Below are positions 196 through 34,289 of a stretch of DNA of 34,420 bases, one piece after another. The position numbers and the translations under genes were made by a program. A model generated the notes under the pieces. That model ran no database searches, had not been told where the DNA came from, and saw nothing but the letters and a program-made list of their open reading frames with translations. How positions within the stretch are numbered: the first letter of the stretch is position 1; every line of letters begins with the position of its first letter. Origin of the DNA: a virus. Location of the stretch: positions 1 through 34,420 of IMG/VR virus record IMGVR_UViG_3300035670_000766. The stretch is one strand, 5' to 3'.

Positions 196-497
196 TCGAT
201 TAGAATAGTCTGGAATGCCTTTTGCCTTAGCATGTAGTGTGCCATAGCGTATATTAGCATTCTCTTATTGACCGGAAAGCCTTGCCTGGAGCGGGTTTAC
301 AGCCTATCGCGTAAAAACGATTTTACGGGGCTTTCTTGAGGTGGCCTATACCTTACCATTGACTACCCTTCGATCCCGCTAAAACGGCTGTAAACGCAAC
401 TAAACGCTATGGCATGGATTTTGACTAGGTATAGAATTTGCTACGCGCGGGCGCGTTACGTAATGGCGAGGAAAGGTCGAAAAATAAATTAAAATAG
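196..497. other. gene-free stretch next to the tandem repeat
   Basis: No plausible reading frame with a ribosome binding site is visible on either strand. It holds a short hairpin (CGTAAAA/TTTTACG near 310-328) and several loose TTGAC-like words without a good -10 box. From about 480 the sequence becomes A/T rich just before the first clear promoter. Together with the repeat it could be a replication or packaging control region, but nothing in the sequence proves this. Confidence 0.5.
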
Positions 498-528
498 TTG
501 ACACAGCGTAAAATACACAGGTTAGAAT
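498..528 (+). promoter_or_regulatory. promoter, TTGACA -35, weak spacing
   Basis: TTGACA at 498-503 and TAGAAT at 523-528 are separated by 19 bp, longer than optimal. An A/T-rich stretch lies just upstream and could act as an UP element. It would drive the small gene at 561. Confidence 0.45.
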
Positions 529-560
529 CTGAGACCTCAACTAATCGTATGAGGTGAATC

Positions 561-719
561 ATGAGAACCATAAAGTTTATCTTCGAAGGTAGGCAGGGTA
601 TTATCGAAGTTTCGCAGGATTGTATTTTTGTTCGCTGGTCTACCTTGTCTTGTCACTTGTCGGCGCTTGTTGGACCTTTGCGCGCCCTTGTGGTTAAAAA
701 AGTGTTGACAAGCGGTTAA
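561..719 (+). CDS. hypothetical small protein (52 aa)
   Basis: A 52-residue frame beginning MRTIKFIFEG and ending VLTSG. It follows its own promoter (498-528) and a GAGGTG ribosome binding site six bases before the ATG. I do not recognise the family. The C-terminal half is hydrophobic but lacks a clean membrane segment. The 3' end contains the -35 box of the next promoter (705-710). The antisense frame over the same bases has no promoter or binding site and is rejected. Its position among tiny, separately promoted genes resembles an early phage region, which is inference. Confidence 0.5.
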   Translation: MRTIKFIFEGRQGIIEVSQDCIFVRWSTLSCHLSALVGPLRALVVKKVLTSG

Positions 720-734
720 GCCGTAAAATAGAAT
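705..734 (+). promoter_or_regulatory. sigma70-type promoter
   Basis: TTGACA (705-710), 18 bp spacer, TAGAAT (729-734). It lies at the end of the 561 gene and drives the gene at 769. Confidence 0.6.
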
Positions 735-768
735 TGAGACATCGACACTCAATCATAAAGGATTAATC

Positions 769-912
769 ATGATAATGGTACTTGAAATTTCCGATTTTCT
801 TACAGGTCGCCAGCATGCGTACCCTATTTATAGGGGCCATTACATGAACCGAGAGAAGGCTGAAAAAGCTCTCGGTTGGTTCTATATCCACAATAATTGT
901 GCTATTGTTTGA
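769..912 (+). CDS. hypothetical small protein (47 aa)
   Basis: A 47-residue frame beginning MIMVLEISDF, with an AAAGGA ribosome binding site and a promoter about 35 bp upstream. The middle (MNREKAEKALGWFYIH) looks like a short amphipathic helix. No family is recognised. The stop codon lies inside a 14-bp perfect palindrome, TTGATCTAGATCAA (909-922), which precedes the next promoter and could be a protein-binding site. Function unknown; probably an early accessory protein by position. Confidence 0.5.
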   Translation: MIMVLEISDFLTGRQHAYPIYRGHYMNREKAEKALGWFYIHNNCAIV

Positions 913-922
913 TCTAGATCAA
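909..922. promoter_or_regulatory. 14-bp perfect palindrome, candidate operator
   Basis: TTGATCTAGATCAA is fully self-complementary and ends 10 bp before the -35 box at 933. There is no U-tract, so it is not a terminator. An operator role is inferred from position only. Confidence 0.3.
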
Positions 923-932
923 CAAAAACACG

Positions 933-960
933 TTGGCAGGCGTAAAATACTCACTACAAT
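933..960 (+). promoter_or_regulatory. sigma70-type promoter
   Basis: TTGGCA (933-938), 16 bp spacer, TACAAT (955-960). It precedes the small gene at 995. Confidence 0.55.
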
Positions 961-994
961 GTGAAACATCAGCAAACGAACAGGAGAAAACGAA

Positions 995-1108
995 ATGGCA
1001 ATCTCAACGCGCACCAAATTAGCACAGGCGCTCCGGGCATACAATCAAGGCTTGCTAGATTCGAGCAGTTATTATCATGCTGTATGTGCGGCACTTTCGG
1101 GGGAATGA
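995..1108 (+). CDS. hypothetical small protein (37 aa)
   Basis: A 37-residue frame (MAISTRTKLAQALRAYNQGL...) with a strong AGGAGA ribosome binding site and the 933-960 promoter about 35 bp upstream. It is mostly predicted helix. Its stop (TGA, 1106-1108) almost touches the next start at 1110, so the two are probably translationally coupled. No family is recognised. Confidence 0.5.
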   Translation: MAISTRTKLAQALRAYNQGLLDSSSYYHAVCAALSGE

Positions 1109-1109
1109 A

Positions 1110-1262
1110 ATGCTGAATCAATTTGAAGTTATCAATACATCATGGGGTCGGGTATTGACACTACATAACCCAAGTAAATATTGTGCTTTCTGGGGAATGC
1201 GGGATATTGTTGCCTACCTCGACAATCCTATGATGCAAGCTCGACTCAATGAGGTGAAATAA
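1110..1262 (+). CDS. hypothetical small protein (50 aa)
   Basis: The frame is open from 1077, but the ATG at 1110 is preferred. It follows a GGGGGA binding site and lies one base after the previous stop, whereas the 1077 start is inside the previous gene and has no binding site. The protein (MLNQFEVINTSWGRVLTL...) is rich in aromatic residues and ends MMQARLNEVK. Unknown function. Confidence 0.5.
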   Translation: MLNQFEVINTSWGRVLTLHNPSKYCAFWGMRDIVAYLDNPMMQARLNEVK

Positions 1263-1263
1263 A

Positions 1264-1440
1264 ATGGACTTTAATAACCTACTTGCCAACCTGCTGGCAA
1301 CCATGCGCACCCAGTCAGCAGATCAAATTTGCGCCGATCTGTGGGCAATTTTCGAGGAAATGCAAGAGACGGAAACCGAGTCGGAAACGGCGCCGGATGA
1401 TATGCAACTTGAATTTAATTCTATTTTTGAGGACCGTTAA
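1264..1440 (+). CDS. hypothetical acidic small protein (58 aa)
   Basis: A 58-residue frame starting one base after the previous stop, with the coupling binding site GAGGTG at about 1251. It begins MDFNNLLANL and has a Glu/Asp-rich C-terminal half (EEMQETETESETAPDD). Strong acidity in a small early-type phage protein is common among host-interacting factors, but nothing here identifies a target. Confidence 0.5.
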   Translation: MDFNNLLANLLATMRTQSADQICADLWAIFEEMQETETESETAPDDMQLEFNSIFEDR

Positions 1441-1444
1441 TATT

Positions 1445-1912
1445 ATGAAAAATTACATCAAAAACAACGAAGTCGACTTCGCAACCATCCCCTATAAGGC
1501 TATTTATTTGTGCGAAACGATTCGAGACGATAACTGGAAATGCGACGCCTGGAATATTCTAATCGACAGCGAGCGATTTGATTTTTTCACTGGCTTGGGG
1601 CATCGCTCACCTATGCCTAAACCTGCCGACGGTGGACCTATGCCGCGCAAAGGTACGCTTATGTATGAGCAACTAGAGGCTCAACGGAAACCGCAAGCGC
1701 CTAAAATCGAAGACGTTTTGTATAGTCTTATTCTCGACTCAAGTGCCTTGGATACCAGTTTTGAATACTGGTGCGATGACTTTGGATATGATACCGATAG
1801 CATCAAGGCACTTAATATTTATCAGGTATGCTGCGAAAACGCCAAGAAAATAAAGCGGCTTTTTGATTCTGCGACAATTGCGGCAATGCGTGAATTCTTT
1901 CGGTATTATTAA
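1445..1912 (+). CDS. hypothetical protein (155 aa)
   Basis: The frame is open from 1283, but that first part overlaps the 1264 gene and reads as basic nonsense. The ATG at 1445, just after the previous stop, gives a sensible start (MKNYIKNNEVDF). The product is acidic, with aromatic and Cys residues spread through it and a C-terminal stretch (NAKKIKRLFDSATIAAMREFFRYY) likely to be helical. No known domain is recognised. It is the longest gene of the left-end cluster. Confidence 0.6.
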   Translation: MKNYIKNNEVDFATIPYKAIYLCETIRDDNWKCDAWNILIDSERFDFFTGLGHRSPMPKPADGGPMPRKGTLMYEQLEAQRKPQAPKIEDVLYSLILDSSALDTSFEYWCDDFGYDTDSIKALNIYQVCCENAKKIKRLFDSATIAAMREFFRYY

Positions 1913-1914
1913 AA

Positions 1915-2058
1915 ATGCAAGCATGGAACGTTTACCTTAATGGCCGGTTGATTGATACCGTTTTTGCAAATGGTTATGATGCTGAAGAAATGCGGAAAAG
2001 TTTAATCTATCACGATGGCTATGATCATCGGATTATTGTTAGAAAGGCGAGAAAATGA
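1915..2058 (+). CDS. small conserved phage protein (47 aa)
   Basis: A 47-residue frame beginning MQAWNVYLNG with the core NGYDAEEMRKSLIYHDGYD. Short proteins of the pattern WNVYLNGKxIDTVF...VRRSLINHDGY occur in many phage genomes with no assigned function; this resemblance is from memory. The start lies two bases after the previous stop. The stop overlaps the next start as ATGA at 2055-2058, which points to translational coupling with the following gene. Confidence 0.65.
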   Translation: MQAWNVYLNGRLIDTVFANGYDAEEMRKSLIYHDGYDHRIIVRKARK

Positions 2059-2465
2059 AAACCTTAGACGAAATGACAGCCGCTTATATTCATGCGGCAT
2101 TATGGTCGACTTCTGATGGAGACCTTGAAAGCCTTGAGGGTTTCGATCTAGCGCCGGGTGAGTACGAGAAAGCCCGAGCGGATTGTGAACGCTTCCTGAA
2201 GGTCGCTGGTAATCTCTTACTCTCACGCGAACCCCTAAGCCTTGAACGCTTGTGGACTAATGAGCAGGCAGGGCACGACCTATGGTTAACCCGTAACGGA
2301 CACGGCGCTGGATTCTGGGGTCGTTACATAGACTTTACGGATTACCAGGATAGAGAAGATGCTAAGGTGAACGGTGAGAAGTTGACGGCGCTTGTCGGGT
2401 ATCATACGGACTTCCAGCCGCTTGACCTTTATATAGATGATGAAGGACTTGTGAGGGGTTTCTGA
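2055..2465 (+). CDS. conserved phage hypothetical protein (136 aa)
   Basis: A 136-residue acidic protein starting MKTLDEMTAAYIHAALWST. Its middle contains AGHDLWLTRNGHGAGFWGR, a signature I recall from a widespread phage protein of unknown function whose N-terminus also reads AYxxCALWxS, followed by a C-terminal LDLYIDDEGLVRG. Binding site AGAAAGG is about 10 bases before the ATG, and the start overlaps the previous stop. It is the last gene before a terminator. No enzymatic motif is seen. Confidence 0.75.
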   Translation: MKTLDEMTAAYIHAALWSTSDGDLESLEGFDLAPGEYEKARADCERFLKVAGNLLLSREPLSLERLWTNEQAGHDLWLTRNGHGAGFWGRYIDFTDYQDREDAKVNGEKLTALVGYHTDFQPLDLYIDDEGLVRGF

Positions 2466-2515
2466 TGACTCTTATCGCTATTCTCTTGGTATTCTTGAGT
2501 CGTCGTATCCTTTGA
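2465..2515 (+). CDS. possible 16-aa hydrophobic peptide
   Basis: ATG overlaps the previous stop (TGATG) and opens a 16-codon frame, MTLIAILLVFLSRRIL, with one hydrophobic stretch followed by two arginines. It could be a tiny membrane peptide translated by coupling, or a chance frame. Length alone gives little support. Confidence 0.2.
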   Translation: MTLIAILLVFLSRRIL

Positions 2516-2538
2516 TCTAGTCGCAGTAAGTTACACGA

Positions 2539-2567
2539 AGCCCAGCGCATGCGCTGGGCTTTTCTTT
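2539..2567 (+). terminator. rho-independent terminator
   Basis: AGCCCAGCGCATGCGCTGGGCT (2539-2560) is a perfect inverted repeat, followed by TTTTCTTTT. It ends the left-end gene cluster. Confidence 0.85.
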
Positions 2568-2597
2568 TGGTGGCTGGCATGATCGTTGACTTAGCAA

Positions 2598-2696
2598 AAG
2601 GCTCCCGCAAGGCTCCCGCAAGGCTCCCGCAAGGCTCCCGCAAGGCTCCCGCAAGGCCACCCGAAGGCCACCCGAAGGCCACCCGAAGGCCACCCG
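2598..2696. repeat. nine 11-bp direct repeats of two related types
   Basis: Five perfect copies of AAGGCTCCCGC start at 2598, 2609, 2620, 2631 and 2642. Four perfect copies of AAGGCCACCCG follow directly at 2653, 2664, 2675 and 2686. The period of 11 bp is close to one helical turn, so all copies face the same side of the DNA. The array is G/C rich in a more A/T-rich genome and lies between a terminator (2539-2567) and a promoter (2810), outside any convincing gene. It may be an iteron-type protein-binding site or origin, or a slippage-prone repeat. Confidence 0.85.
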
Positions 2697-2809
2697 CCCC
2701 GATGCAAAACGTCCGGGCGCTTTTGGGGTTATCCTAAAGACGGATTTCAGACCTCAAAACCTCCTAGTTGCTCAAAGCAACATAAGTTACATTAGCCTGT
2801 TCAGAAAAC

Positions 2810-2838
2810 TTGACTTTCCTAAAACTTACAACTATAAT
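2810..2838 (+). promoter_or_regulatory. sigma70-type promoter, consensus -10
   Basis: TTGACT (2810-2815), 17 bp, TATAAT (2833-2838). It drives the gene set beginning at 2866. A small hairpin GTTGCTcaAAGCAAC lies about 40 bp upstream. Confidence 0.8.
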
Positions 2839-2865
2839 AGTTGCTTTCATACACAAAGGATCGTC

Positions 2866-3072
2866 ATGGACCCCTTCAACGCCACGTTTGAGTGCAAAAA
2901 ATACAACCGCAAGGTATCCCATTTCCTAAGAAATGAATACGTCAAACAGTATGTTGCGATTAACAACATTCCACTACCAAAACTTGAACGCCGTAAGGCA
3001 ACTATGCTTGACAACAGACTCAGAGAACTGTTAGAATGGTGGCTTAACAAAGGATACAAGAATGGTCTATAA
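2866..3072 (+). CDS. hypothetical protein (68 aa)
   Basis: A 68-residue basic protein (MDPFNATFECKKYNRK...) with an AAAGGA ribosome binding site, about 20 bp after the promoter's start site. The C-terminal part (MLDNRLRELLEWWLNKGYKNGL) is probably helical. No family is recognised. It overlaps the next gene by 11 bp. Confidence 0.65.
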   Translation: MDPFNATFECKKYNRKVSHFLRNEYVKQYVAINNIPLPKLERRKATMLDNRLRELLEWWLNKGYKNGL

Positions 3073-3226
3073 CCTCTACCCCCGCTTCAACCCACAATAC
3101 TTCCCTTGGCTATTCCCCGAAGACAACGAATGGCAACTGGAAGGAACCTTTAATACCCTGCAAGGATGCCTTGATTATCTAAGCACCGCTACTAAAGCAC
3201 TTGAATATAAACTGGAGGAAGTATGA
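3062..3226 (+). CDS. hypothetical protein (54 aa)
   Basis: A 54-residue frame beginning MVYNLYPRFNPQYFPWLFPEDN, rich in aromatic residues and proline. It starts inside the 3' end of the previous gene and ends in an ATGA overlap with the next, so all three are likely coupled. Function unknown. Confidence 0.55.
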   Translation: MVYNLYPRFNPQYFPWLFPEDNEWQLEGTFNTLQGCLDYLSTATKALEYKLEEV

Positions 3227-3438
3227 CAAATCTGAAACATGAAGGCTTTATTATGTCTGTTCTTGCTAAAATGCACGAGTCATGGATGTCTGAAGAAGAC
3301 AAAGAAACCTACGACACTTTAATGCTAAACCTAGTTGGGCGTGAAATGGATAAAGCGATTGAAGAAGGTTTAGAACTTGGCTACAGTCTGGAAAAACAAC
3401 TAGACAGTGTTGAGTTTGCTTTAAGGAACATTAAATAA
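3223..3438 (+). CDS. hypothetical acidic protein (71 aa)
   Basis: The start at 3223 follows a GGAGG site (3214-3218) inside the previous gene. The product is helical and acidic (MSEEDKETYDTLMLNLVGREMDKAIEEGLELGYSLEKQL; several turns of amphipathic helix). No family is recognised. Its stop TAA overlaps the next ATG by one base. Confidence 0.65.
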   Translation: MTNLKHEGFIMSVLAKMHESWMSEEDKETYDTLMLNLVGREMDKAIEEGLELGYSLEKQLDSVEFALRNIK

Positions 3439-3812
3439 TGTACGGAACCGCAGAAATTAACAACGAAGTCTACCAAAACGGTAAGATTATCCTTAAACTC
3501 AACCCGCACCTAATCAAGAAACAAGGACTCAACCAAGAACAAGTTAATCGCATTAAAGAACTCCATCTTGAGCGTATTAGTATTGAGAAGCAACTAGAAC
3601 AAGCGCACAGAGTAGAGGATATTAGATTTTTATATTCTGAATGGTGTTCTCTACAGTTTTTGCTTCAGGATGCTTGGGATTTCCCACGAGACGCTAATTG
3701 GCATCCTAGCCATCGTTTACCTCATTGTTCCTGTCCAAAACTTGATGGAGACGACCGTATTGGCGTTCCTTACAAGATCGTAACAAAAGGCTGTGTGATC
3801 CACGATGTCTAA
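3438..3812 (+). CDS. conserved phage hypothetical protein with Cys/His C-terminus (124 aa)
   Basis: The N-terminal half is helical, with a probable coiled-coil stretch around residues 35-60 (LNQEQVNRIKELHLER...). The C-terminal half holds DFPRDANWHPSHRLPHCSCPKLDGDDRIG and a final CVIHD, giving Cys and His residues that could bind a metal ion. Phage proteins ending in CxCPKxDNxD...CxxH occur widely without known function; I recall this pattern from memory. It is coupled to the genes on both sides. Confidence 0.7.
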   Translation: MYGTAEINNEVYQNGKIILKLNPHLIKKQGLNQEQVNRIKELHLERISIEKQLEQAHRVEDIRFLYSEWCSLQFLLQDAWDFPRDANWHPSHRLPHCSCPKLDGDDRIGVPYKIVTKGCVIHDV

Positions 3813-4615: not shown

Positions 4616-6742
4616 ATGCTTCAAACACCCTACGAAGAATATATCCATATTTCGCGTTATGCACGGTGGGATGACAAACTAAACCGCCGTGAGACTTGGC
4701 CTGAAACCGTTAAGCGTTACTGTGACTTCTTCTCTAAGAAGTTTAATGGTGCTTATGACGACACAATTTACAATGAAATCCAGCCAGCAATCCTTAATTG
4801 TGAAGTGATGCCGTCAATGCGTGCGCTGATGACTGCTGGACCCGCACTCGAACGCGAGAATATGGCGGGTTACAACTGTGCTTATGTCTCTATTAATCAC
4901 AAACGCGCCTTCTCTGAAACACTATACTCGCTCATGTGCGGAACGGGAATTGGCTTTACCTGTGAGCGCCAAGAGGTAGGAAAACTACCCACTATTCCTG
5001 AAAATCTAAAGCCCTCAGATGACGTAATCGTGGTAGAAGACAGCAAAATGGGGTGGGCTAAGGCGTACAACAAGCTAATTAATGCGCTTTATGACGGTGA
5101 CATCCCATCTTTTGACCTTTCTAAAGTTCGTCCAGCGGGTGCGCGTCTTAAAACTTTCGGCGGTCGTGCTAGTGGTCCCGAACCGCTTCGTAGTCTATTC
5201 GAGCATACTATCGAGGCATTCAAGAAGGCTAAAGGTCGCAAACTGAACTCTATCGAAGTTCACGGTATCATCTGCAAAATTGCAGATATTGTGGTAGTAG
5301 GAGGAGTTCGCCGTAGCGCTCTGTTGAGTCTTAGCAATCTGTCAGATCAACGTATGCGTGACGCTAAGAGTGGTCAGTGGTGGCACGAACATCCCGAATA
5401 TGCACTGGCTAATAACAGTATCGCCTATACAGAGAAGCCAGAGATGGAAACATTCATGGAGGAGTGGTTGGCATTGGTGAAGTCTAAGTCTGGTGAACGT
5501 GGTATCTTTAATCGTGTAGCGGCACAGAAACAAGCATCTAAGTGGGGGAAGAGGTCGGCTGAAATCGACTATGGTTGCAATCCGTAAACAGAACTAATGC
5601 GGATGTAAAATCTTCTCTGATTGACTTGGAAGCCCAGAGGTGGGCGACAGGGCGCAAGCGAAAGCAGCGTGAACGACTAAGTGAGAAGACCCGAAAGGGA
5701 TGCGATAGTCTGAACTCCGATATAACCTGATTGAAGTCGGAGAGGGAACCTGAAGCGGAACCCCGCCTAGTAATAGGTCAGTAAGCGAAAGCCGAAGTAA
5801 CAGAATGGTAGTGAGATTATTCTAAGACCATCTCAGATGTGCAATCTGAGTGAAGTGGTGGTGCGTGCTGACGACGATTATGTGTCCTTGAAGCGCAAGG
5901 TGCGTATTGCGACAATTATGGGGACTTTCCAAGCATCCTTGACTAACTTCGGGTTCGTTGGTGAAGCATGGAAGAAGAATACGGAAGAAGAAGCCCTTCT
6001 TGGTGTATCTTTGACGGGCATTATGGATAATCCGCTGACATCTGGTCAAGAATCTAAGGATATGTTGATCAAAACCCTTGAATCCTTGCGTGACTATACA
6101 GTAGAAGTTAATGCTGAATGGACTGATAAGCTAGGGATCAAGCGTTCCACAGCAATCACCACCTGCAAGCCGTCTGGAACCGTGTCTCAGTTGGTTAATT
6201 GTGCTTCGGGTATTCATGCGCGTTACTCCAAGTATTATCTACGCACAGTTCGCACAGATAAGAAAGACCCGTTGTATCAGTTCATGCAAGCTAAGGGTAT
6301 CTATTGTGAAGACGATGTGATGAAACCCGAGACTGGCGCTGTATTCTACTTCCCCATCAAAGCACCTGATAACTGCATTACTACGGCTGATCGCACAGCT
6401 ATTGAACAACTTGAAACTTGGCTGTTGTATCAGCGCCACTGGACACATCATAAACCATCTGTTACAATTAACGTAGAAGATGATGAATGGATGGAAGTAG
6501 GTTCGTGGGTATGGGAGCACTTTGACGAGGTTAGTGGTGTCAGCTTCCTGCCGGGTGGTTCGTCCCATTCATATCGCCAAGCACCCTACCAAAGTATCAC
6601 AGAACAGGAGTATAATGATTGGTGTCAGAAACATCCGATGCCTTCTATTGACTGGTCTGAGTTGTCTGAGTTCGAGAAAGAGGATACAACGACAGGTACA
6701 CAGACTTTAAGTTGTTCTGCGGGTGTCTGTGAGCTAGTTTAA
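4616..6742 (+). CDS. nrdJ: class II (adenosylcobalamin-dependent) ribonucleotide reductase, split by a group I intron
   Basis: Reduces ribonucleotides to deoxyribonucleotides for phage DNA synthesis. Exon 1 is 4616-5585 and exon 2 is 5808-6742; joined they give 634 residues. Cys88 (YNCAYVSI) and Cys335 (MCNLSEV) match the reducing pair. N322-P-C324-S-E326 matches the radical cysteine motif NxCxE, and Cys324 to Cys335 is 11 residues, as in the Lactobacillus class II enzyme. The C-terminal SCSAGVCELV carries the Cys pair (626, 631) that passes electrons to the active site. No NrdB-like radical subunit is visible nearby, which fits class II. The gene has an AAGGAG binding site. Unspliced RNA would stop at TAA 5585-5587 and yield an inactive 323-residue fragment, so splicing is required. 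Class is inferred from motif pattern and size; exon boundaries are well supported. Confidence 0.9.
5586..5807 (+). ncRNA. group I self-splicing intron, no ORF
   Basis: 222 nt between reductase exons. The 5' exon end ATCCGT (5580-5585) pairs with an internal guide GCGGAT (5599-5604), placing the required U-G pair at U5585. P7 is GACTA (5675-5679) with TAGTC (5706-5710). P8 is CCC-gaaa-GGG (5690-5699). P9 is CTCCGA (5715-5720) with TCGGAG (5737-5742). The last intron base is G5807 and exon 2 restarts as GT AGT GAG ATT ATT, restoring a CSEII reading. No endonuclease gene lies inside it. The subgroup was not determined. Confidence 0.9.
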
Positions 6743-7564: not shown

Positions 7565-8121
7565 AAGTCTTACGTGAGGCAGGATACGACGAAGCGTTAC
7601 GCGGTATGGCTTATTCCTTCAAGGATCGTGCAGCGCCTGTTGAAGAATGGTGGGAAGGTCAACGCGAACGAGCAGAAAAGCGAGCACCTAAACTAGCACC
7701 CATGGACGGTGGGCATAATAAGTTCCTTGAGTCTATTCAGGTGTGGATTGATGTAGAGGCTTGTAGAGCTTTCTGGTCTGAGTACGATACTTACAGAGTT
7801 GGTACAACTAAGCAGTCAGAAAGCACGATGCATACACTTTCTAAGAGACCACCAACACAAGAGGACTTTGAAGAAGGTACGCTACCAGAAGTTGTTCAGA
7901 CATTTAAGATGGTCTGGGAACTATACAACAAGGACATAACAATCCTTAAAGAGAATCTACCTGAGGGCTTCTTGCAGCGACGTATTGTCTGCACAAACTA
8001 TAAGGTGTTGAAGAACATCCTACAGCAACGTGAAGGACACCGTTACAAGCGTTGGCAGGTTTTTATTGATGAGATTGTAAAACAAGTTGAACATCCTGAA
8101 CTCTTGACAAAACCTTCATAA
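7555..8121 (+). CDS. ThyX-like protein, possible FAD-dependent thymidylate synthase relative (188 aa)
   Basis: A 188-residue protein. Residues 52-96 contain GGHNKFLESIQVWIDVEACRAF and DTYRVGTTKQSESTMHTL. Residues 139-170 contain RRIVCTNYKVLKNILQQREGHRYKRWQVF, which parallels the ThyX region where a TNxRxLxHFLxxR-type helix is followed by AQxEIR. The classic ThyX signature RHRxxSxxExSxR is not clearly present, so the fold may be shared while activity differs. Proteins like this are common in phages and usually labelled hypothetical. Proximity to the reductase fits a nucleotide role. The 3' end contains the 8104 promoter. Confidence 0.5.
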   Translation: MQVKVLREAGYDEALRGMAYSFKDRAAPVEEWWEGQRERAEKRAPKLAPMDGGHNKFLESIQVWIDVEACRAFWSEYDTYRVGTTKQSESTMHTLSKRPPTQEDFEEGTLPEVVQTFKMVWELYNKDITILKENLPEGFLQRRIVCTNYKVLKNILQQREGHRYKRWQVFIDEIVKQVEHPELLTKPS

Positions 8122-8132
8122 TCGTCTATAAT
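8104..8132 (+). promoter_or_regulatory. strong consensus promoter for the small membrane gene and tmRNA
   Basis: TTGACA (8104-8109), 17 bp, TATAAT (8127-8132): full consensus in both boxes. The start site is expected near 8139. No other good promoter lies before the tmRNA, so it probably drives both the 8156 gene and the tmRNA precursor to the terminator at 8708-8731. Confidence 0.85.
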
Positions 8133-8155
8133 GTCCTATAATCATGGAGAATACG

Positions 8156-8362
8156 ATGAACACAGTAGAATTTATCAGTAAGTTGGAAGCGTCTGGTATG
8201 CCTGTTGAACAGGCTAAAGTGGTTGCAGAACGGTTTGAAGACGACTCGTTAGTAACTACAAAAGTCCTTGAAGCCTCGCTAGACCGTCAGTTTATTAAGA
8301 TTGGTGGGTTGATTTGCGTAGCCTTGGCACCTGTATATTCTAAGGTGTTGGGATTGTTTTAA
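8156..8362 (+). CDS. DUF1640-like small membrane protein, copy 1 (68 aa)
   Basis: The frame is open from ATG 8144, but GGAGA at 8146-8150 is correctly spaced for ATG 8156, so MNTVEFISKLEASGMP is preferred. Residues 1-40 (FISKLEASGMPVEQAKVVAERF...) form a helix like those of the DUF1640/CCDC90 group, and residues 46-66 (FIKIGGLICVALAPVYSKVLG) are a membrane segment. A diverged second copy lies at 16509, with the same length and layout. Function unknown; a membrane-anchored helper or holin-like role is possible. It is apparently co-transcribed with the tmRNA immediately downstream. Confidence 0.7.
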   Translation: MNTVEFISKLEASGMPVEQAKVVAERFEDDSLVTTKVLEASLDRQFIKIGGLICVALAPVYSKVLGLF

Positions 8363-8430
8363 GAAATTGTCGTACAACCTGAAACATGAAGGCGTTCTGG
8401 ACGCGGGTTCGATTCCCGCCACCTACACCA
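8363..8430 (+). ncRNA. ssrA: permuted tmRNA, acceptor piece (CCA end)
   Basis: The T-arm is GCGGG (8403-8407), loop TTCGATT, CCCGC (8415-8419), followed by the acceptor strand CACCTAC (8420-8426), A8427 and an encoded CCA (8428-8430). CTGGACGCGGGTTCGA is the typical tmRNA 3' half. There is no anticodon arm. The acceptor strand pairs with GTGGGTG at 8550-8556 of the coding piece. The 5' end of this piece is not determined; 8363 is simply the end of the previous gene. I could not confirm helix P2. Confidence 0.85.
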
Positions 8431-8549
8431 TAAAGTAATTAGTAACCAACCACTGTTGTGTAAAAGGTGCTGCGGGTTCTTAGTGAGCCGTTAAAGATCG
8501 TAGCGCAGACTAATTGGATTATGTTCTAGCCTGCTGGTTACTTTATGAT
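8431..8549 (+). ncRNA. intervening segment of the permuted tmRNA precursor
   Basis: 119 nt between the CCA end and the 5' end of the coding piece. Its ends pair (TAAAGTAA 8431-8438 with TTACTTTA 8538-8545), with an alternative pairing AGTAACCA 8441-8448 with TGGTTACT 8535-8542. An internal hairpin has CTGCG (8470-8474) with CGCAG (8514-8518). In known two-piece tmRNAs such a loop is removed by tRNA-type processing. Confidence 0.75.
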
Positions 8550-8707
8550 GTGGGTGTGCTGGCTTCGACAGGGTGAGATAGTGCGGATGGCGACACGTCA
8601 GGCCAATGACGTTAATCTAGCAATCGTTAGAAATGCCAACGATCAGGAGTATCGCATAGCCGCTTAAGGCTTGATGGGGTCGAAGAACCTTATTACCCAA
8701 CTCTCAC
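8550..8707 (+). ncRNA. ssrA: permuted tmRNA, coding piece with tag ANDQEYRIAA
   Basis: Acceptor strand GTGGGTG (8550-8556) pairs with 8420-8426 and gives the G3-U70 wobble used by alanyl-tRNA synthetase. The conserved D-loop-like CTGGCTTCGACAGGG follows. A PK1-type stem is ACGTCA (8595-8600) with TGACGT (8607-8612). The tag frame runs 8635-8667: GCC AAC GAT CAG GAG TAT CGC ATA GCC GCT TAA, tag ANDQEYRIAA. The stop lies in the loop of a small hairpin (AGCC 8658-8661, GGCT 8668-8671), as in helix P5 of standard tmRNA. The exact resume codon is inferred, and the 3' end is set by the terminator. Confidence 0.85.
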
Positions 8708-8737
8708 TTACACCACCTTCGGGTGGTGTAATGTTTC
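8708..8737 (+). terminator. terminator of the tmRNA transcript
   Basis: TTACACCACC-TTCG-GGTGGTGTAA is a perfect 10-bp stem with a UUCG loop, followed by TGTTTCT. Confidence 0.75.
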
Positions 8738-8743
8738 TCAAAC

Positions 8744-8772
8744 TTGACATTAACCGGCTTTATGCCTATTAT
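8744..8772 (+). promoter_or_regulatory. sigma70-type promoter for a structured RNA
   Basis: TTGACA (8744-8749), 17 bp, TATTAT (8767-8772). Start site expected near 8779, directly before a hairpin series without a gene. Confidence 0.75.
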
Positions 8773-9252: not shown

Positions 9253-9435
9253 ATGAAACTATTTAATACAACGCAAGCAGCAGAATACCTCGGGGTGCAC
9301 CCTCAAAGTCTGCGTAATTGGGACAACAACGGGAAGTTCGTAGCCTTACGGACGCCAGGAGGACAACGTAGGTATTCTGAAGATCAATTAAAGGAGTTTG
9401 GTAAGTGGAATCAGGAACAGAAGAATTCAACCTAA
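9253..9435 (+). CDS. MerR-type helix-turn-helix DNA-binding protein (60 aa)
   Basis: Residues 6-50 (TTQAAEYLGVHPQSLRNWDNNGKFVALRTPGGQRRYSEDQL) match the winged HTH of MerR-type regulators and IS607-type recombinases; the RTPGGxRRY turn is characteristic. At 60 residues it is the DNA-binding domain alone, with no effector or catalytic part. There is no ribosome binding site, and the ATG coincides with the predicted transcript start, so translation is probably leaderless. It overlaps the next gene by 31 bp. Likely roles are a regulator or a small architectural protein near the terminase; neither is proven. Confidence 0.8.
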   Translation: MKLFNTTQAAEYLGVHPQSLRNWDNNGKFVALRTPGGQRRYSEDQLKEFGKWNQEQKNST

Positions 9436-10664
9436 CCGTATTGGATGTTGTTAAGTTTTGCAACAATCTCTATACAGACGGGACAGTGAAGAAATACGCA
9501 AAAGATGGGATGTTCCCTTACATCTACAAGAACGGCTATATGATGCTTACTTCGGCAAGCATTGAATTCATGAAACCATTACTAGCTGAAAGAAAGCGAA
9601 TCTTATTTGAACAACCATATAACGTATATTGTATAACGAACTCGGTTAACGGTAAGAGGTATGTAGGTATCACTCGTGACACCATAGAAGACCGTTTCTA
9701 CGAACATAAAAGAGCCGCTAATAATTGTAGGTCTTCTGAAACTCGTGCTATCGTTAAAGCATTCCGTAAGTATGGTGCGGAATCTTTTACTGTCGAGTTG
9801 ATTGACACAGCTATAGGTATGATCGAAGCCGGTGAAAAGGAATCATACTATATAGAACTTCTTCAAACGCATACGCGCTACAAGAAAGGTTATAACCTAA
9901 CTGACGGCGGTGAAGGGGTCACTAATTGCGTCACACCGGATTGGTTAAAGAAGTTTAGGTCTGATATGAATTCTGGTGAAAATAACACTTGGTATGGATT
10001 GCGCGGAAAATCTTGTCCTCACTACGGTAAAGTCCATACCGAAGAAACCAGAAAATATCTAAAAGAGAACAATCCGCAAAGCGTTCCTGTAACGCTAAAC
10101 GGTGTTAGCTACATGAGCAAGATGTTCGCGTCAGAAGAATTAGGTGTAGCAAAATCAGCAATAGACATCTTGAAGAAGTTTGAGGATGGCGAAGACCCGA
10201 AAGGTATTAAACCTGTCGTAGTTGATGGAATTCTATATTACTCTGTATCTCGTGCAGCAAAGGCTATAGGTATATCGGATTACAAAGTCTGCCGTAAGAC
10301 CCTAGATGGTTCTGCGTATTTCTTAGATCGTAGATTGACTTTCGATGAGATGTTAGACTATTGCCGTTCTTTATTAGGTAATAAGCAACAGAAGGTTATC
10401 TGCAAAGGTGTTGAATATCCTTCTATGAAGCGTTGTCAAGCCGAAACAGGATTAGATAGAGATACCATAAAGCGACTTGAACGCGAAGGCGAAATCACGC
10501 TAGTAAAAGATTTTGTGAGAATCCAGAAAACCATAGGTAATTCGCGCGCACTGGAAGTAGACGGAGTTATTTATGAATCTATGAATAAGGTTTGTGAAGC
10601 CTTGCACGTAACAAGAAAAACCGTGACTGCTATGATAAAAGAAGGTAAGGCGAAGGAACTATGA
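9405..10664 (+). CDS. GIY-YIG homing endonuclease with HTH N-terminus and NUMOD tail (419 aa)
   Basis: GTG start at 9405 after AAGGAG (9391-9396), overlapping the HTH gene. Residues 10-66 look like an excisionase-type HTH (TDGTVKKYAKDGMFPYIYKNGY). The GIY-YIG domain spans about 72-167, with VYCI (74-77), YVG (86-88), R97, catalytic E146 and GYNLTDGGEG. A NUMOD3 segment follows (191-225), then four NUMOD1/IENR1-like DNA-binding units near 226-262, 268-304, 329-364 and 380-419. It is a free-standing selfish gene inserted between the HTH gene and terL, with no intron around it. It overlaps the terL start by 4 bp. Confidence 0.9.
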   Translation: MESGTEEFNLTVLDVVKFCNNLYTDGTVKKYAKDGMFPYIYKNGYMMLTSASIEFMKPLLAERKRILFEQPYNVYCITNSVNGKRYVGITRDTIEDRFYEHKRAANNCRSSETRAIVKAFRKYGAESFTVELIDTAIGMIEAGEKESYYIELLQTHTRYKKGYNLTDGGEGVTNCVTPDWLKKFRSDMNSGENNTWYGLRGKSCPHYGKVHTEETRKYLKENNPQSVPVTLNGVSYMSKMFASEELGVAKSAIDILKKFEDGEDPKGIKPVVVDGILYYSVSRAAKAIGISDYKVCRKTLDGSAYFLDRRLTFDEMLDYCRSLLGNKQQKVICKGVEYPSMKRCQAETGLDRDTIKRLEREGEITLVKDFVRIQKTIGNSRALEVDGVIYESMNKVCEALHVTRKTVTAMIKEGKAKEL

Positions 10665-14511: not shown

Positions 14512-15444
14512 ATGGCCTCACAAACCCTTGCCGAAGCCGGCAAACTGACTAACGACATGATCGTGCGTGGTGTTGTAGAAGACATCATCACTGTCAACCC
14601 CATTTATGCTCTTTTCCCGTTCCAAGGTTACACCGGTCAAGCTATCGTTGTTAACCGCGAGAACGCCCTTGGTGATGCCGGTCTGTTCGCTGTTGATGCT
14701 GCTATCACCGCTAAGGCTGCTGCGACTTTCACTCAATACACCTACACCGCTACCAAGCTGATCGGTGACGTTGAGATGGATGGCCTCGTGCAAGCACAGA
14801 ACGCTTCTGCTGGTGTTGATCAACTGGCTGTTGAAATTTCGAGCAAAGCTAAGTCAATCGGCCGTCTGTTCCAAGACGGTATGGTTAATGGCGACGGCAT
14901 CAGCCCGAACATGAACAGCTTCCACACCCTGACTGATGCTGGTCAGTACACCACCGCTTCTGCTGGTCAGGCAATCTCCTTCGCCCTTCTGGACGAACTG
15001 CTTGACCTCGTGAAGTCCAAGGATGGTCAGGTTGATGCTATCATGATGCCTGCTCGCACCATGCGTTCCTACAAGGTCCTCCTGCGTGCTCTTGGTGGGA
15101 CTCCGGGTGACTGGGTTGTGACACTTCCTGATGGCCGCACCACGATCTCCTACGAGTCGATCCCGATGTTCCGCAACGAGTATCTGAGCGTTGTTGAAAC
15201 TGCAAACGGGGCCGCGCTCAGCGGCGGTGCTCTGGCTTCTGTATATGCCTTTAACTTCGACGACGGCACTCAGCGTGTTGGTGTTGCTGGTATTCACCCT
15301 GCTTCGGTTCCTGCCGGTATCATGGTCGAGACCATCGGCAAACAAGAAGCAAAAGATAACGAAATCGTACGTTGCAAAATGTATTCTAATTTCGCGTCTT
15401 TCAACCGCAAAGGTGTTGCTCGCCTCACCTCAATCAACAACTAA
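14512..15444 (+). CDS. major capsid protein (310 aa)
   Basis: Builds the head shell, HK97-like fold by inference. The sequence begins MASQTLAEAGKLTNDMIVRGVVEDIITVNPIYALFPF, a start typical of phage coat proteins of this size, with long beta-rich stretches (TATKLIGDVEMDGLVQAQ) and an extended C-terminal part. It has a very strong AAGGAG site, C-ending codons more often than its neighbours (fitting high expression), a position after the scaffold, and a strong terminator just behind it. There is no obvious N-terminal delta domain, which fits a separate scaffold. Confidence 0.88.
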   Translation: MASQTLAEAGKLTNDMIVRGVVEDIITVNPIYALFPFQGYTGQAIVVNRENALGDAGLFAVDAAITAKAAATFTQYTYTATKLIGDVEMDGLVQAQNASAGVDQLAVEISSKAKSIGRLFQDGMVNGDGISPNMNSFHTLTDAGQYTTASAGQAISFALLDELLDLVKSKDGQVDAIMMPARTMRSYKVLLRALGGTPGDWVVTLPDGRTTISYESIPMFRNEYLSVVETANGAALSGGALASVYAFNFDDGTQRVGVAGIHPASVPAGIMVETIGKQEAKDNEIVRCKMYSNFASFNRKGVARLTSINN

Positions 15445-15462
15445 TCTCACGAGAATTAGTGG

Positions 15463-15485
15463 AACCGCCCTTCTGGGCGGTTTTT
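15463..15485 (+). terminator. rho-independent terminator after the capsid gene
   Basis: AACCGCCC-ttct-GGGCGGTT followed by TTTTTG: classic strong terminator. Confidence 0.93.
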
Positions 15486-15500
15486 GTTTGTTCAAAACAC

Positions 15501-15529
15501 TTGACACGCACCACAAGTTAGTGTATTAT
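15501..15529 (+). promoter_or_regulatory. promoter for the HNH endonuclease gene
   Basis: TTGACA (15501-15506), 17 bp ending GTG, TATTAT (15524-15529), 16 bp after the capsid terminator. Confidence 0.75.
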
Positions 15530-15553
15530 ATCGGTTTGACTGTGAGAACAATA

Positions 15554-16507
15554 ATGCTCGACAAAATACTCAGACAACATAAACCGTTTCTTGATTGTGT
15601 AGAGACTGACGAATATTTACGGATAGTCTCAGAAGATCACACAGGTAAAGGTGAGGTGCACCACATACTCCCAGAGACATTGTATCCAGAATATAGAAAC
15701 GAAACTTGGAACAAAGTAAACCTATCGTATAGAAACCATTACCGAGTTCACGAACTATTACCTTTTATGCTTGAAGGTAAGCAGAAAGGTTCTATGCTTT
15801 ACGCTTGGAATATGATGCGCGGTAGAACAGGCGAGGATTTTGTAGATGCTGATAGGTATGACGAACTCAGAAGATTGCATTCTGAACGTGCATCAGAACA
15901 GATGAAAGAAAACCAACCAATGCACAGACCCGAAGTTGTGGCAAAATTAGTAGGTAGAAAAAGACCAGAACACGGACTGCTTATGTCTGAGAATAATCCA
16001 GCAACTAGAGATGACGTTAAGATTAAGTTAAGTGCGAACAACAACATGAAAACGCCTGAAGGGAGACTTCGCTTTACCGGGGAGAACAATCCAAACTTTG
16101 GTAAACAAATGTCAGATGAACAAAAACAATGCTTGAGGTCGGCTAAATTAGGTACAGTAGTAGACTACGATGTAAAGAAAAAGATATCGAAGTCGATGAT
16201 AGGTAAAACCACAACTGGTGTTATTATAGATGGCGTAATATACAACTCAGTGACATCTGCCGCGAAAGAACTATCAGTTGATAGACATACTATTGCTAAA
16301 TGGGTAAAATCAGGGAAGGCTGCAAAACTATGTCAGCAAAAGACCTTAGTTGTTATAGGCTGCATAAAGTATGATTCCATGTCCGAAGCAGCGAGGTCTA
16401 TTGGCATTAGTAGAGCTGCTATCAGAAGTATGATTAAACACGGAAAAGCAATAAAACTTGACAACCACAAAAATTCTGATAAACTACCAGAAACCAAAGG
16501 AGTGTAA
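15554..16507 (+). CDS. HNH homing endonuclease with NUMOD DNA-binding tail (317 aa)
   Basis: The frame is open from 15191, but everything before 15554 lies inside the capsid gene, its terminator and the promoter, so ATG 15554 (MLDKILRQHK) is the start. The HNH core has H36-H37 (VHHILP), N56 (KVNLSYRNH) and H66 (RVHELL). Basic linker segments include a NUMOD3-like unit (ENNPNFGKQMSDEQ, from 177) and two NUMOD1-like units near 222-259 and 265-302, close relatives of those in the GIY-YIG enzyme. A free-standing selfish gene after the capsid gene. Its 3' end carries the promoter of the next gene. Confidence 0.9.
   Translation: MLDKILRQHKPFLDCVETDEYLRIVSEDHTGKGEVHHILPETLYPEYRNETWNKVNLSYRNHYRVHELLPFMLEGKQKGSMLYAWNMMRGRTGEDFVDADRYDELRRLHSERASEQMKENQPMHRPEVVAKLVGRKRPEHGLLMSENNPATRDDVKIKLSANNNMKTPEGRLRFTGENNPNFGKQMSDEQKQCLRSAKLGTVVDYDVKKKISKSMIGKTTTGVIIDGVIYNSVTSAAKELSVDRHTIAKWVKSGKAAKLCQQKTLVVIGCIKYDSMSEAARSIGISRAAIRSMIKHGKAIKLDNHKNSDKLPETKGV
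16458..16485 (+). promoter_or_regulatory. extended -10 promoter inside the HNH gene end
   Basis: TTGACA (16458-16463), 16 bp ending TGA, TAAACT (16480-16485). Drives the 16509 gene. Confidence 0.7.
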
Positions 16508-16508
16508 A

Positions 16509-16727
16509 ATGACAGCAATTGAATATGAACGAAGTCTGCGTCTAGCTGGATTCACACCAGATCAGTCAGAAGCTATAGCAACCGGCTACGTTGACAAGAA
16601 CGAACTTGTGACGAAAGAGTATCTGCGTGCTGAACTAAAGACACTAGAATTGTCTATGATTACTAAATTGTCGGCAATTCTAGTATTCGCTTTATCGCCA
16701 ATATATATCAAAGTATTTGGAGGATAA
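16509..16727 (+). CDS. DUF1640-like small membrane protein, copy 2 (72 aa)
   Basis: ATG 16509 follows AAAGGAG and lies one base after the HNH stop; the frame upstream (from 16458) is inside the HNH gene. The helix MTAIEYERSLRLAGFTPDQSEAIATGYV is followed by LVTKEYLRAELKTLEL and a membrane segment near residues 50-68 (MITKLSAILVFALSPIYIKVFGG). The plan LV-TK--L-A-L at the centre and the SPIYIKVFG / APVYSKVLG end match copy 1 at 8156. Role unknown; duplication suggests two membrane-linked variants. Confidence 0.72.
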   Translation: MTAIEYERSLRLAGFTPDQSEAIATGYVDKNELVTKEYLRAELKTLELSMITKLSAILVFALSPIYIKVFGG

Positions 16728-31924: not shown

Positions 31925-33031
31925 ATGATTACCTACGAAATGATTAAGGATGTATTTGATTTGGATAACCCTCTGACACTAGAGTATTTTGAGTTGTGTA
32001 GCACGCCATACGAAGGCAACGAATACAGCGAAAAACACCACATTTTACCAAAAAGCATGTTTCCTGATTTTGTGAAGTGTAAGTGGAACCTAGTTCGTTT
32101 GACAGCAAAACAACACTATATGGCACACTACTACTTGAAAGATATAGTATTGTCTGATGAAAATAAGTCGAAAATGTTGCAGGCATGGGTTGTAGTTTGC
32201 AAATTTACAAGATTTCAAGACTCTATTGAAAATCACGCATATCAATACGCTAAGGCTAAAGAAGAACAAGCCTTACGTTTGTCCGGCAAGGGCAACCCCA
32301 TGTATGGTAAGAAGAGACCTCAGTATGTAATAGATGCCCTTACTGAAGGTGCTAGAAACCGTGTATGGACAGAAGAAGATAAGATGAAGATGTCTTCGAG
32401 GGTGTCTGGTAAAGGAAACCCGATGTATGGTAAGACTCATACACCAGAAGTAAGAGAAATATTGAGGAAAGCGCAAACAGGTAGACCGGTCACTGATGAG
32501 TATAGAGAAAGGATGAGTTCTGTAACAAAGGGTGAGAACAACGGGATGTATGGTAAGACTCACAAAGAAGAAACGATTAAGAAAATGATGGATGTTAAAG
32601 CCTCTTATGAACATAAAGGTAGTATGTATAGCTTGAACACTTTAGCGAAGATGTACGGTATATCTGATGTAGGACTAAAACATAGGTTAAAATCTGGTAT
32701 GAACCTTGACGATGCGCTTTTGCTACCTGTTGTTAGGGGTGGTATCTTGGAAGATAGACTGCACGACTTAGGGTTTGTATTTAATTCCGGTAAGTGGTAT
32801 AACGCTAAAGACGGTGAAGGTATTTTAGATGAATATGTCAAAATCAAGAGATACCACGTAGTAGGCGCAGCAACAGGTAAGACTAAATTAGATGACGAGA
32901 AAGTTACAACTATAAAGAAGATGCTAGCTAATGGGTGTAGATATAAAGATATAATGAATATGTTTGGAGTAAGCAAAGGTTGCGTAAACCATATAGCTAA
33001 TGGTAGAACATGGACGCACGTTATTGTGTAA
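31925..33031 (+). CDS. HNH homing endonuclease with three NUMOD3 units and C-terminal HTH (368 aa)
   Basis: The HNH core has H38-H39 (KHHILPKS), N55 (WNLVRLTAKQH) and H68 (MAHYYL). NUMOD3-type repeats sit at about 121-140, 162-182 and 203-221 (GKGNPMYGK... and GENNGMYGK...). A NUMOD1-like segment follows (SLNTLAKMYGISDVGLKHRL), and the end (VTTIKKMLANGCRYKDIMNMFGVSKGCVNHIANGRTW) is an HTH. A free-standing selfish gene after the structured RNA; GAGGTG site. It differs clearly from the 15554 enzyme beyond the HNH core, so the two are separate arrivals. Confidence 0.9.
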   Translation: MITYEMIKDVFDLDNPLTLEYFELCSTPYEGNEYSEKHHILPKSMFPDFVKCKWNLVRLTAKQHYMAHYYLKDIVLSDENKSKMLQAWVVVCKFTRFQDSIENHAYQYAKAKEEQALRLSGKGNPMYGKKRPQYVIDALTEGARNRVWTEEDKMKMSSRVSGKGNPMYGKTHTPEVREILRKAQTGRPVTDEYRERMSSVTKGENNGMYGKTHKEETIKKMMDVKASYEHKGSMYSLNTLAKMYGISDVGLKHRLKSGMNLDDALLLPVVRGGILEDRLHDLGFVFNSGKWYNAKDGEGILDEYVKIKRYHVVGAATGKTKLDDEKVTTIKKMLANGCRYKDIMNMFGVSKGCVNHIANGRTWTHVIV

Positions 33032-33563: not shown

Positions 33564-34283
33564 ATGGCACAACAGCGTAAGCAAACACCATCTAAGAAGT
33601 CTGAAGTTAAGGAATTCTCAAACACTAAAGCGAACCCTTTTATAGCCAAGACACACAAACAGAAGGAACTCTTTAGTGCGCTTAACGGTGGTGTTGTAAC
33701 CTTTGCAACTGGTCCAGCCGGTACTGGAAAGAGTTATGTAACTATTGCTTATGCCTGCCAAGAATTGATGAAGGGTCGGTTCGATAAAATTCTAATCACG
33801 CGACCTATGATTCCTGCTGCTTATGAAGATATTGGGGCATTACCCGGTGACATTGACCTCAAGTTTGTCGTACCTTATATTGGTCCAATTCGCCATATCT
33901 TGGATCGCTGCTTAGGTAAAGGTCATGTAGATATGTACATCAAGGAGGGTAAGATTACTTGTTCTCCATTAGCATATATGCGTGGATCAACCCACGATAA
34001 CACCTTCATGTTGCTCGATGAAGCTCAGAACTGCATACCTGAGCAAGTAAAAATGTTCCTTACACGAATCGGTGAAGATAGTAAGATTGCTATTGTAGGT
34101 GATTCTAAGCAGTCCGATATTCGTGGTGTCACTAACGGCCTTGACGATGCTGTAGAACGCCTAGCGTGGAACCCCGACGTGCGTGTAGTCAATTTTGAGC
34201 GTAAGGATATTGTTCGTAACTCAATCATCTCCGACATCCTTCAGTCCTACGAAGACACTATTGACAGGAAAGGACTTACGTAA
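33564..34283 (+). CDS. phoH: PhoH-like ATPase (239 aa)
   Basis: The Walker A motif is GPAGTGKS (50-57) and Walker B is FMLLDEAQN (148-156); ITRPMIPA, LPGD and the conserved VGDSKQSDI segment (about 178-186) are characteristic of PhoH. It is a predicted RNA or nucleotide-related ATPase; its phage role is unsettled though it is a very common phage gene. AAGGAG site. The TAA stop directly abuts the next -10 box. Basic N-terminus (QRKQTPSKKSEVK). Confidence 0.93.
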   Translation: MAQQRKQTPSKKSEVKEFSNTKANPFIAKTHKQKELFSALNGGVVTFATGPAGTGKSYVTIAYACQELMKGRFDKILITRPMIPAAYEDIGALPGDIDLKFVVPYIGPIRHILDRCLGKGHVDMYIKEGKITCSPLAYMRGSTHDNTFMLLDEAQNCIPEQVKMFLTRIGEDSKIAIVGDSKQSDIRGVTNGLDDAVERLAWNPDVRVVNFERKDIVRNSIISDILQSYEDTIDRKGLT

Positions 34284-34289
34284 TATAAT
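34261..34289 (+). promoter_or_regulatory. full-consensus sigma70-type promoter
   Basis: TTGACA (34261-34266), 17 bp, TATAAT (34284-34289). It lies in the end of the PhoH gene. Confidence 0.85.

Follow-up and report, generated by a model that had tools for sequence, protein, structure and literature searches.

The tmRNA genes of phages of the mycobacteriophage Bxz1 type are standard one-piece genes. They have in common with the gene described here that a complete tmRNA is carried by a phage (PMC4131195). Two-piece tmRNAs have also been reported in phages; the Methylophilales phage Melnitz carries one, and when 18,146 phage genomes were surveyed, ARAGORN called 53 such genes, of which 50 came from marine or aquatic samples (PMC9004378). 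A tmRNA database of 2025 includes 79 phage tmRNAs, counting all forms (PMC11915505). In bacteria, the two-piece tmRNA is functional in Caulobacter, according to work cited in PMC3985003.

The phage gene described here encodes a tmRNA of the betaproteobacterial type in circularly permuted (two-piece) form. The gene occupies positions 8366-8731 of IMG/VR record IMGVR_UViG_3300035670_000766, a viral sequence of 34,420 nt that was analyzed as a whole (the window) and to which all coordinates refer unless another record is named; the gene, its promoter and the small ORF upstream of it are on the plus strand. As in the Melnitz-type phages, a complete permuted ssrA is found in a tailed phage with no evident SmpB partner, but the Melnitz gene has alphaproteobacterial kin and a glutamine riboswitch has been reported upstream of it (PMC9004378), whereas this gene is of the beta type and an Rfam search of the window revealed no riboswitch. 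A previous reading of this DNA, made from the sequence only, implied that such a gene is rare. This is not supported, given the 53 genes already reported, to which 26 further IMG/VR viral contigs and the Xanthomonas phage XacN1, all sharing the permuted gene order, can be added here. This kind of gene is known from dozens of phages, and the window adds one divergent beta-type example.

Anatomy of the permuted gene and pairing between its pieces

ARAGORN predicted a permuted tmRNA at 8338-8758 with the tag ANDQEYRIAA, and the Rfam search gave a match to beta_tmRNA (RF01850) that covers the model end to end (8325-8731, model 1-331, 151.5 bits, E 7.6e-47; gathering threshold, 84 bits). This was the best-scoring model of its clan and outscored the alpha and cyano models; the tmRNA_permuted model was also matched (8368-8667, 122.9 bits, E 8.8e-24; cut-off, 47 bits). 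The sequence-only reading had placed the CCA-bearing half first and the tag half after it, an order that it associated with several bacterial groups, and had suggested a covariance search; this search returned a significant two-piece match that, together with the ARAGORN call, bears out the order and assigns it to the beta form. In a base-by-base check, each element named in that reading was found at its coordinates. The full-length covariance match rules out a chance resemblance and also a partial ssrA copy of the kind that integrating elements leave behind, in which one of the gene ends would be missing. At its start the beta_tmRNA match overlaps the upstream ORF by ~40 bases, which correspond to the unpaired 5' flank of the model, hence the 5' end of the RNA is probably near 8366-8368.

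The acceptor half is encoded 5' of the coding half, and an intervening sequence separates them. The acceptor piece (8366..8430, delimited by ARAGORN, Rfam and stem comparison, with an approximate 5' end) contains the 5' strand of helix H2 (TGTCG, 8368-8372), the T-arm (8403-8419, with the T-stem GCGGG 8403-8407 / CCCGC 8415-8419 and the loop TTCGATT), the acceptor 3' strand CACCTAC (8420-8426), A73 (8427) and an encoded CCA (8428-8430). The coding piece (8550..8731, delimited by ARAGORN, Rfam and folding, with an approximate 3' end) begins with the acceptor 5' strand GTGGGTG (8550-8556) and includes the CTGGCTTCGACAGGG motif from 8559, the 3' strand of H2 (8589-8595), the hairpin ACGTCA/TGACGT (8595-8612), the tag reading frame (8635..8667), a stem at 8674-8693, and a terminal hairpin of 10 bp with a TTCG loop and a weak T-rich tail (8708..8731) that is the equivalent of the 3' hairpin of beta tmRNA. 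All the features of the tRNA-like domain are therefore present, i.e. the 7-bp acceptor stem, the T-arm, G3-U70 and A73-CCA. The hairpin at 8595-8612 is the first stem of PK1; the second PK1 stem was looked for in the window and none was found convincingly. The stem at 8674-8693 was assigned to a PK2-like element by homology to the viral contig L065, its pairing being judged by eye; this first stem is ATGGGGT/ACCTTAT here, with two G-U pairs, and ATGAGGT/ACCTTAT in L065. The second PK2 stem is clear in L065, and none was found in the window.

The acceptor strands pair over 7 bp including G3-U70, as had been noticed from the sequence. This stem is paired in 34 of the 34 permuted genes compared (22 viral, window and XacN1 included, and about 13 bacterial, with some overlap removed), a result that is partly built in because the survey demanded at least 6 of the 7 pairs and half of the loci were collected by a fixed 3' pattern. 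The compensating double changes were not built into the survey and come mostly from loci found via the coding side; they occur at pairs 2, 4, 5 and 6, i.e. four of the seven, and G3-U70 is unchanged across the set. The window carries a compensated pair of its own, U2-A71. In the Rfam alignment helix H2 also joins the two pieces (UGUCG/CGACA here versus UGUUG/CAACA and GGUUG/CAACU in relatives), and the difference from UGUUG/CAACA is a further compensated change. When the two pieces were cofolded, the hybridization energy was no better than that of shuffled pieces (z = -0.7); as this energy is uninformative, the evidence that the pieces pair comes from the covariance models and the covariation.

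The intervening sequence (8431..8549, 119 nt) is closed by a terminal stem of 14 bp. The pairing of its ends was also noticed in the earlier reading; out of 300 shuffled sequences, 4 folded as stably (fold z = -2.6). Other phage permuted genes have comparable terminal stems with a different sequence, and in ten of them the intervening sequence ends in TGAT before the coding piece, the same four bases that precede it in the window; in bacterial permuted genes it ends in AGGT, GGGT or GGTT. In another permuted viral tmRNA (L066, 544-735; also L071, L074 and L076) the intervening sequence has 192 nt and contains small ORFs that are preceded by ribosome-binding sites; one of these ORFs has 46 codons, encodes a hydrophobic end and stops 1 nt before the coding piece. 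The real tag is ANDDYYEYALAA; ARAGORN picks another frame.

Relatives among bacterial and phage genes

The gene in the window shares with the bacterial beta_tmRNA genes (RF01850) the gene order, the helices, the register of the tag, the 10 encoded tag residues and the final TTCG hairpin. Several features differ: CCA is encoded, as in most phage permuted genes, whereas the 13 bacterial genes compared have CCT or CCC; the intervening sequence is 119 nt long and ends in TGAT, in contrast to 24-42 nt in the bacterial genes; and it has its own promoter layout, with a small ORF between the promoter and the RNA.

In the tree, the window is placed beside Rhodocyclaceae-type bacterial genes (support 91/83) on a long branch, followed by the L062/L063/L065/L072 group (five viral contigs) and XacN1. 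The viral genes L062, L063, L065, L072, L077 and XacN1 (L002) likewise show a beta-type match and an intervening stem, and most share the encoded CCA and the TGAT before the coding piece; nonetheless, their coding pieces are 65-70% identical or less, and they have other tags and other neighbours. The nearest bacterial copy compared is 73% identical to the window tmRNA, and the exact acceptor piece is absent from 84,980 genomes in a pattern-level search; a recent capture from the host is therefore not supported. The coding piece was searched in 399 genomes of the order Burkholderiales by scoring two candidates per genome, a non-exhaustive procedure. No near relatives were found in phage records except for a short match to XacN1, and two search patterns retrieved no near-identical tmRNAs from viral contigs.

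XacN1 is a jumbo phage of Xanthomonas citri with an unannotated permuted beta-type tmRNA (L002 2973-3393, about 37201-37621 in AP018399.1). The gene has the tag ANANTFDYALAA and a second copy near 356026, and adjoins a GOLLD RNA. Xanthomonas itself has a one-piece tmRNA. It is conceivable, though we consider it unlikely, that phages keep a long-lived permuted tmRNA lineage of their own, from which the betaproteobacterial form could derive, and whose hosts may include one-piece bacteria, as for XacN1. Such a lineage would be marked by free-running tags, by a CCA in the gene itself and by an intervening sequence that forms a stem and ends in TGAT.

Genomic setting and expression signals

Phage genes are found on both sides of the tmRNA, i.e. 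those for a class II ribonucleotide reductase (nrdJ), terminase, portal, capsid, endolysin and PhoH, and the order nrdJ - terminase - portal - capsid is common to two IMG/VR contigs (L003 and L004, 40-64% protein identity). These observations agree with the earlier view that the gene is phage-carried and rule out bacterial contamination of the record. In L003 and L004 the gap between nrdJ and terminase is ~640 bases versus 3.9 kb in the window, and the tmRNA is absent from this place. Given the shared order and the short gap, the tmRNA is part of an accessory insert between nrdJ and terminase, along with the genes for an HTH protein and a GIY-YIG homing endonuclease. In contig L024 a permuted tmRNA is located 1.8 kb upstream of nrdJ; in Nipunavirus-type isolates, with an nrdJ that is 68% identical, no tmRNA is annotated near this gene. 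L003, a relative of this phage, carries 22 tRNA genes without a tmRNA (456-3567), and the window a tmRNA without tRNA genes.

Three homing-endonuclease-like genes are present in the 34 kb (9405-10664, 15191-16507 and 31925-33031); one is of the GIY-YIG type, and the other two combine NUMOD motifs with HNH-like sequence. In addition, nrdJ is interrupted in the window after GCNP by about 220-250 nt (5585-5807) and resumes in frame at SEIILRPSQMCNLSEVV; in L003 it is uninterrupted. By motif the interruption looks like a group I intron; an Rfam search with it gave no match.

Upstream of the tmRNA there is a sigma-70 promoter sequence, TTGACA-17-TATAAT (8104..8132), that matches the consensus at 12 of 12 positions, and the transcript likely starts near 8139. 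In the whole window two perfect promoters were observed and 0.01 expected from shuffles; the second is at 34261-34289, near the window end. A promoter with 11 of 12 positions is located at 8744-8772, directly past the tmRNA terminator. The hairpin at 8708-8731 resembles an intrinsic terminator, so with the promoter at 8104-8132 the tmRNA looks like an expressed unit. The small ORF that lies outside the tmRNA itself (8156..8362) encodes 68 aa from the ATG at 8156, which is preceded by a GGAG ribosome-binding site, or 72 aa from the ATG at 8144, with a hydrophobic stretch at the C-terminus. It is probably co-transcribed with the tmRNA, and a Pfam search assigned it to no family. A second small protein (16458-16727) is similar by eye, with a coiled N-terminus and a hydrophobic C-terminus, and also had no match in Pfam.

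Tag peptide and proposed role in infection

The codons at 8635-8667 (GCC AAC GAT CAG GAG TAT CGC ATA GCC GCT TAA; ARAGORN) encode ANDQEYRIAA followed by a stop, so that an alanine resume codon and a degradation-type C-terminus are both present. With the alanine of the charged RNA the tag reads A-ANDQEYRIAA, in the register of E. coli AANDENYALAA, and it retains the length and the ANDxxY...AA pattern of functional tags; the tag of the neighbouring bacterial clade, ANDERFAIAA, likewise terminates in IAA. The adaptor SspB contacts the N-terminal part of the tag, N3 and Y7 included. The last three residues are recognized by ClpX (PMC3968760). Since the termini read by proteases and adaptors are kept (AAND..Y..IAA), the degradation signal should still work.

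In our judgment this complete beta-type two-piece tmRNA is very probably a working accessory gene of a tailed phage that provides extra ribosome-rescue capacity in infection. A transcript from the promoter at 8104-8132 would span the small ORF as well as the permuted gene and stop at the terminator (8731). Host RNase P would cut the 5' end of the coding piece (8550), 3'-processing enzymes would make the CCA end (8430), and both activities would thereby remove the 119-nt intervening hairpin, leaving two pieces held together by helix H2 and the acceptor stem of 7 bp. The CCA end would be charged by host alanyl-tRNA synthetase via G3-U70, and host SmpB and EF-Tu would deliver the charged RNA to ribosomes stalled on broken mRNA, where translation would resume at GCC 8635 and add (A)ANDQEYRIAA, a tag for ClpXP-type proteases. 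No SmpB gene was found in the window, this record being a fragment, so that host SmpB, AlaRS, EF-Tu and proteases would have to serve. The phage would benefit from more ribosome rescue while host RNA synthesis drops and broken messages accumulate. The functional suggestions of the sequence-only reading, namely control of rescue or proteolysis and complementation of the host, are reasonable as proposals of this kind. A phage-borne ribosome-rescue RNA suggests that stalled ribosomes limit infection, and because the gene is small, with a clear promoter, a clear terminator and a distinctive tag, it lends itself to testing cleanly whether a phage tmRNA functions and who benefits from it.

The benefit could instead come from retagging, by which host or phage products would follow another degradation route or rate, or from the recycling of amino acids from host proteins, as proposed for Melnitz (PMC9004378). 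Tag positions 4-7 do deviate from the bacterial ANDERFA(L/I)AA, but phage tags commonly drift in their middle part and, by the known tag rules (PMC3968760), the ends read by proteases and adaptors are the ones conserved here; we regard this possibility, which requires the same functional RNA as ribosome rescue and differs only in the benefit, as improbable. We give slightly less weight still to a decoy role, in which the RNA would bind to SmpB, to AlaRS or to stalled ribosomes and thereby dampen host trans-translation. There is precedent in mycobacteriophage DS6A, whose tRNA-domain-only RNA has lost the tag part and is thought to be a decoy, and a DS6A-like RNA of this kind inhibits tmRNA in E. 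coli (PMC4131195; PMC11915505). In contrast, the window keeps the full coding piece, in which the resume codon opens a tag of the usual length that is closed by an in-frame stop. The rest of the listed phage permuted genes have kept their tags as well, most of them ending in AA; with a complete tag part a decoy role is unlikely. Least credible of all is a captured host gene in decay, carried as a passenger without present use: the gene does lie in an accessory stretch, adjoins a homing endonuclease and is missing at the same place in L003 and L004, but a decaying copy at ~73% identity would have lost pairs, tag, CCA and promoter, whereas here the acceptor stem, the T-stem and the outer H2 are unbroken, the tag is intact, CCA is encoded and the promoter is perfect.
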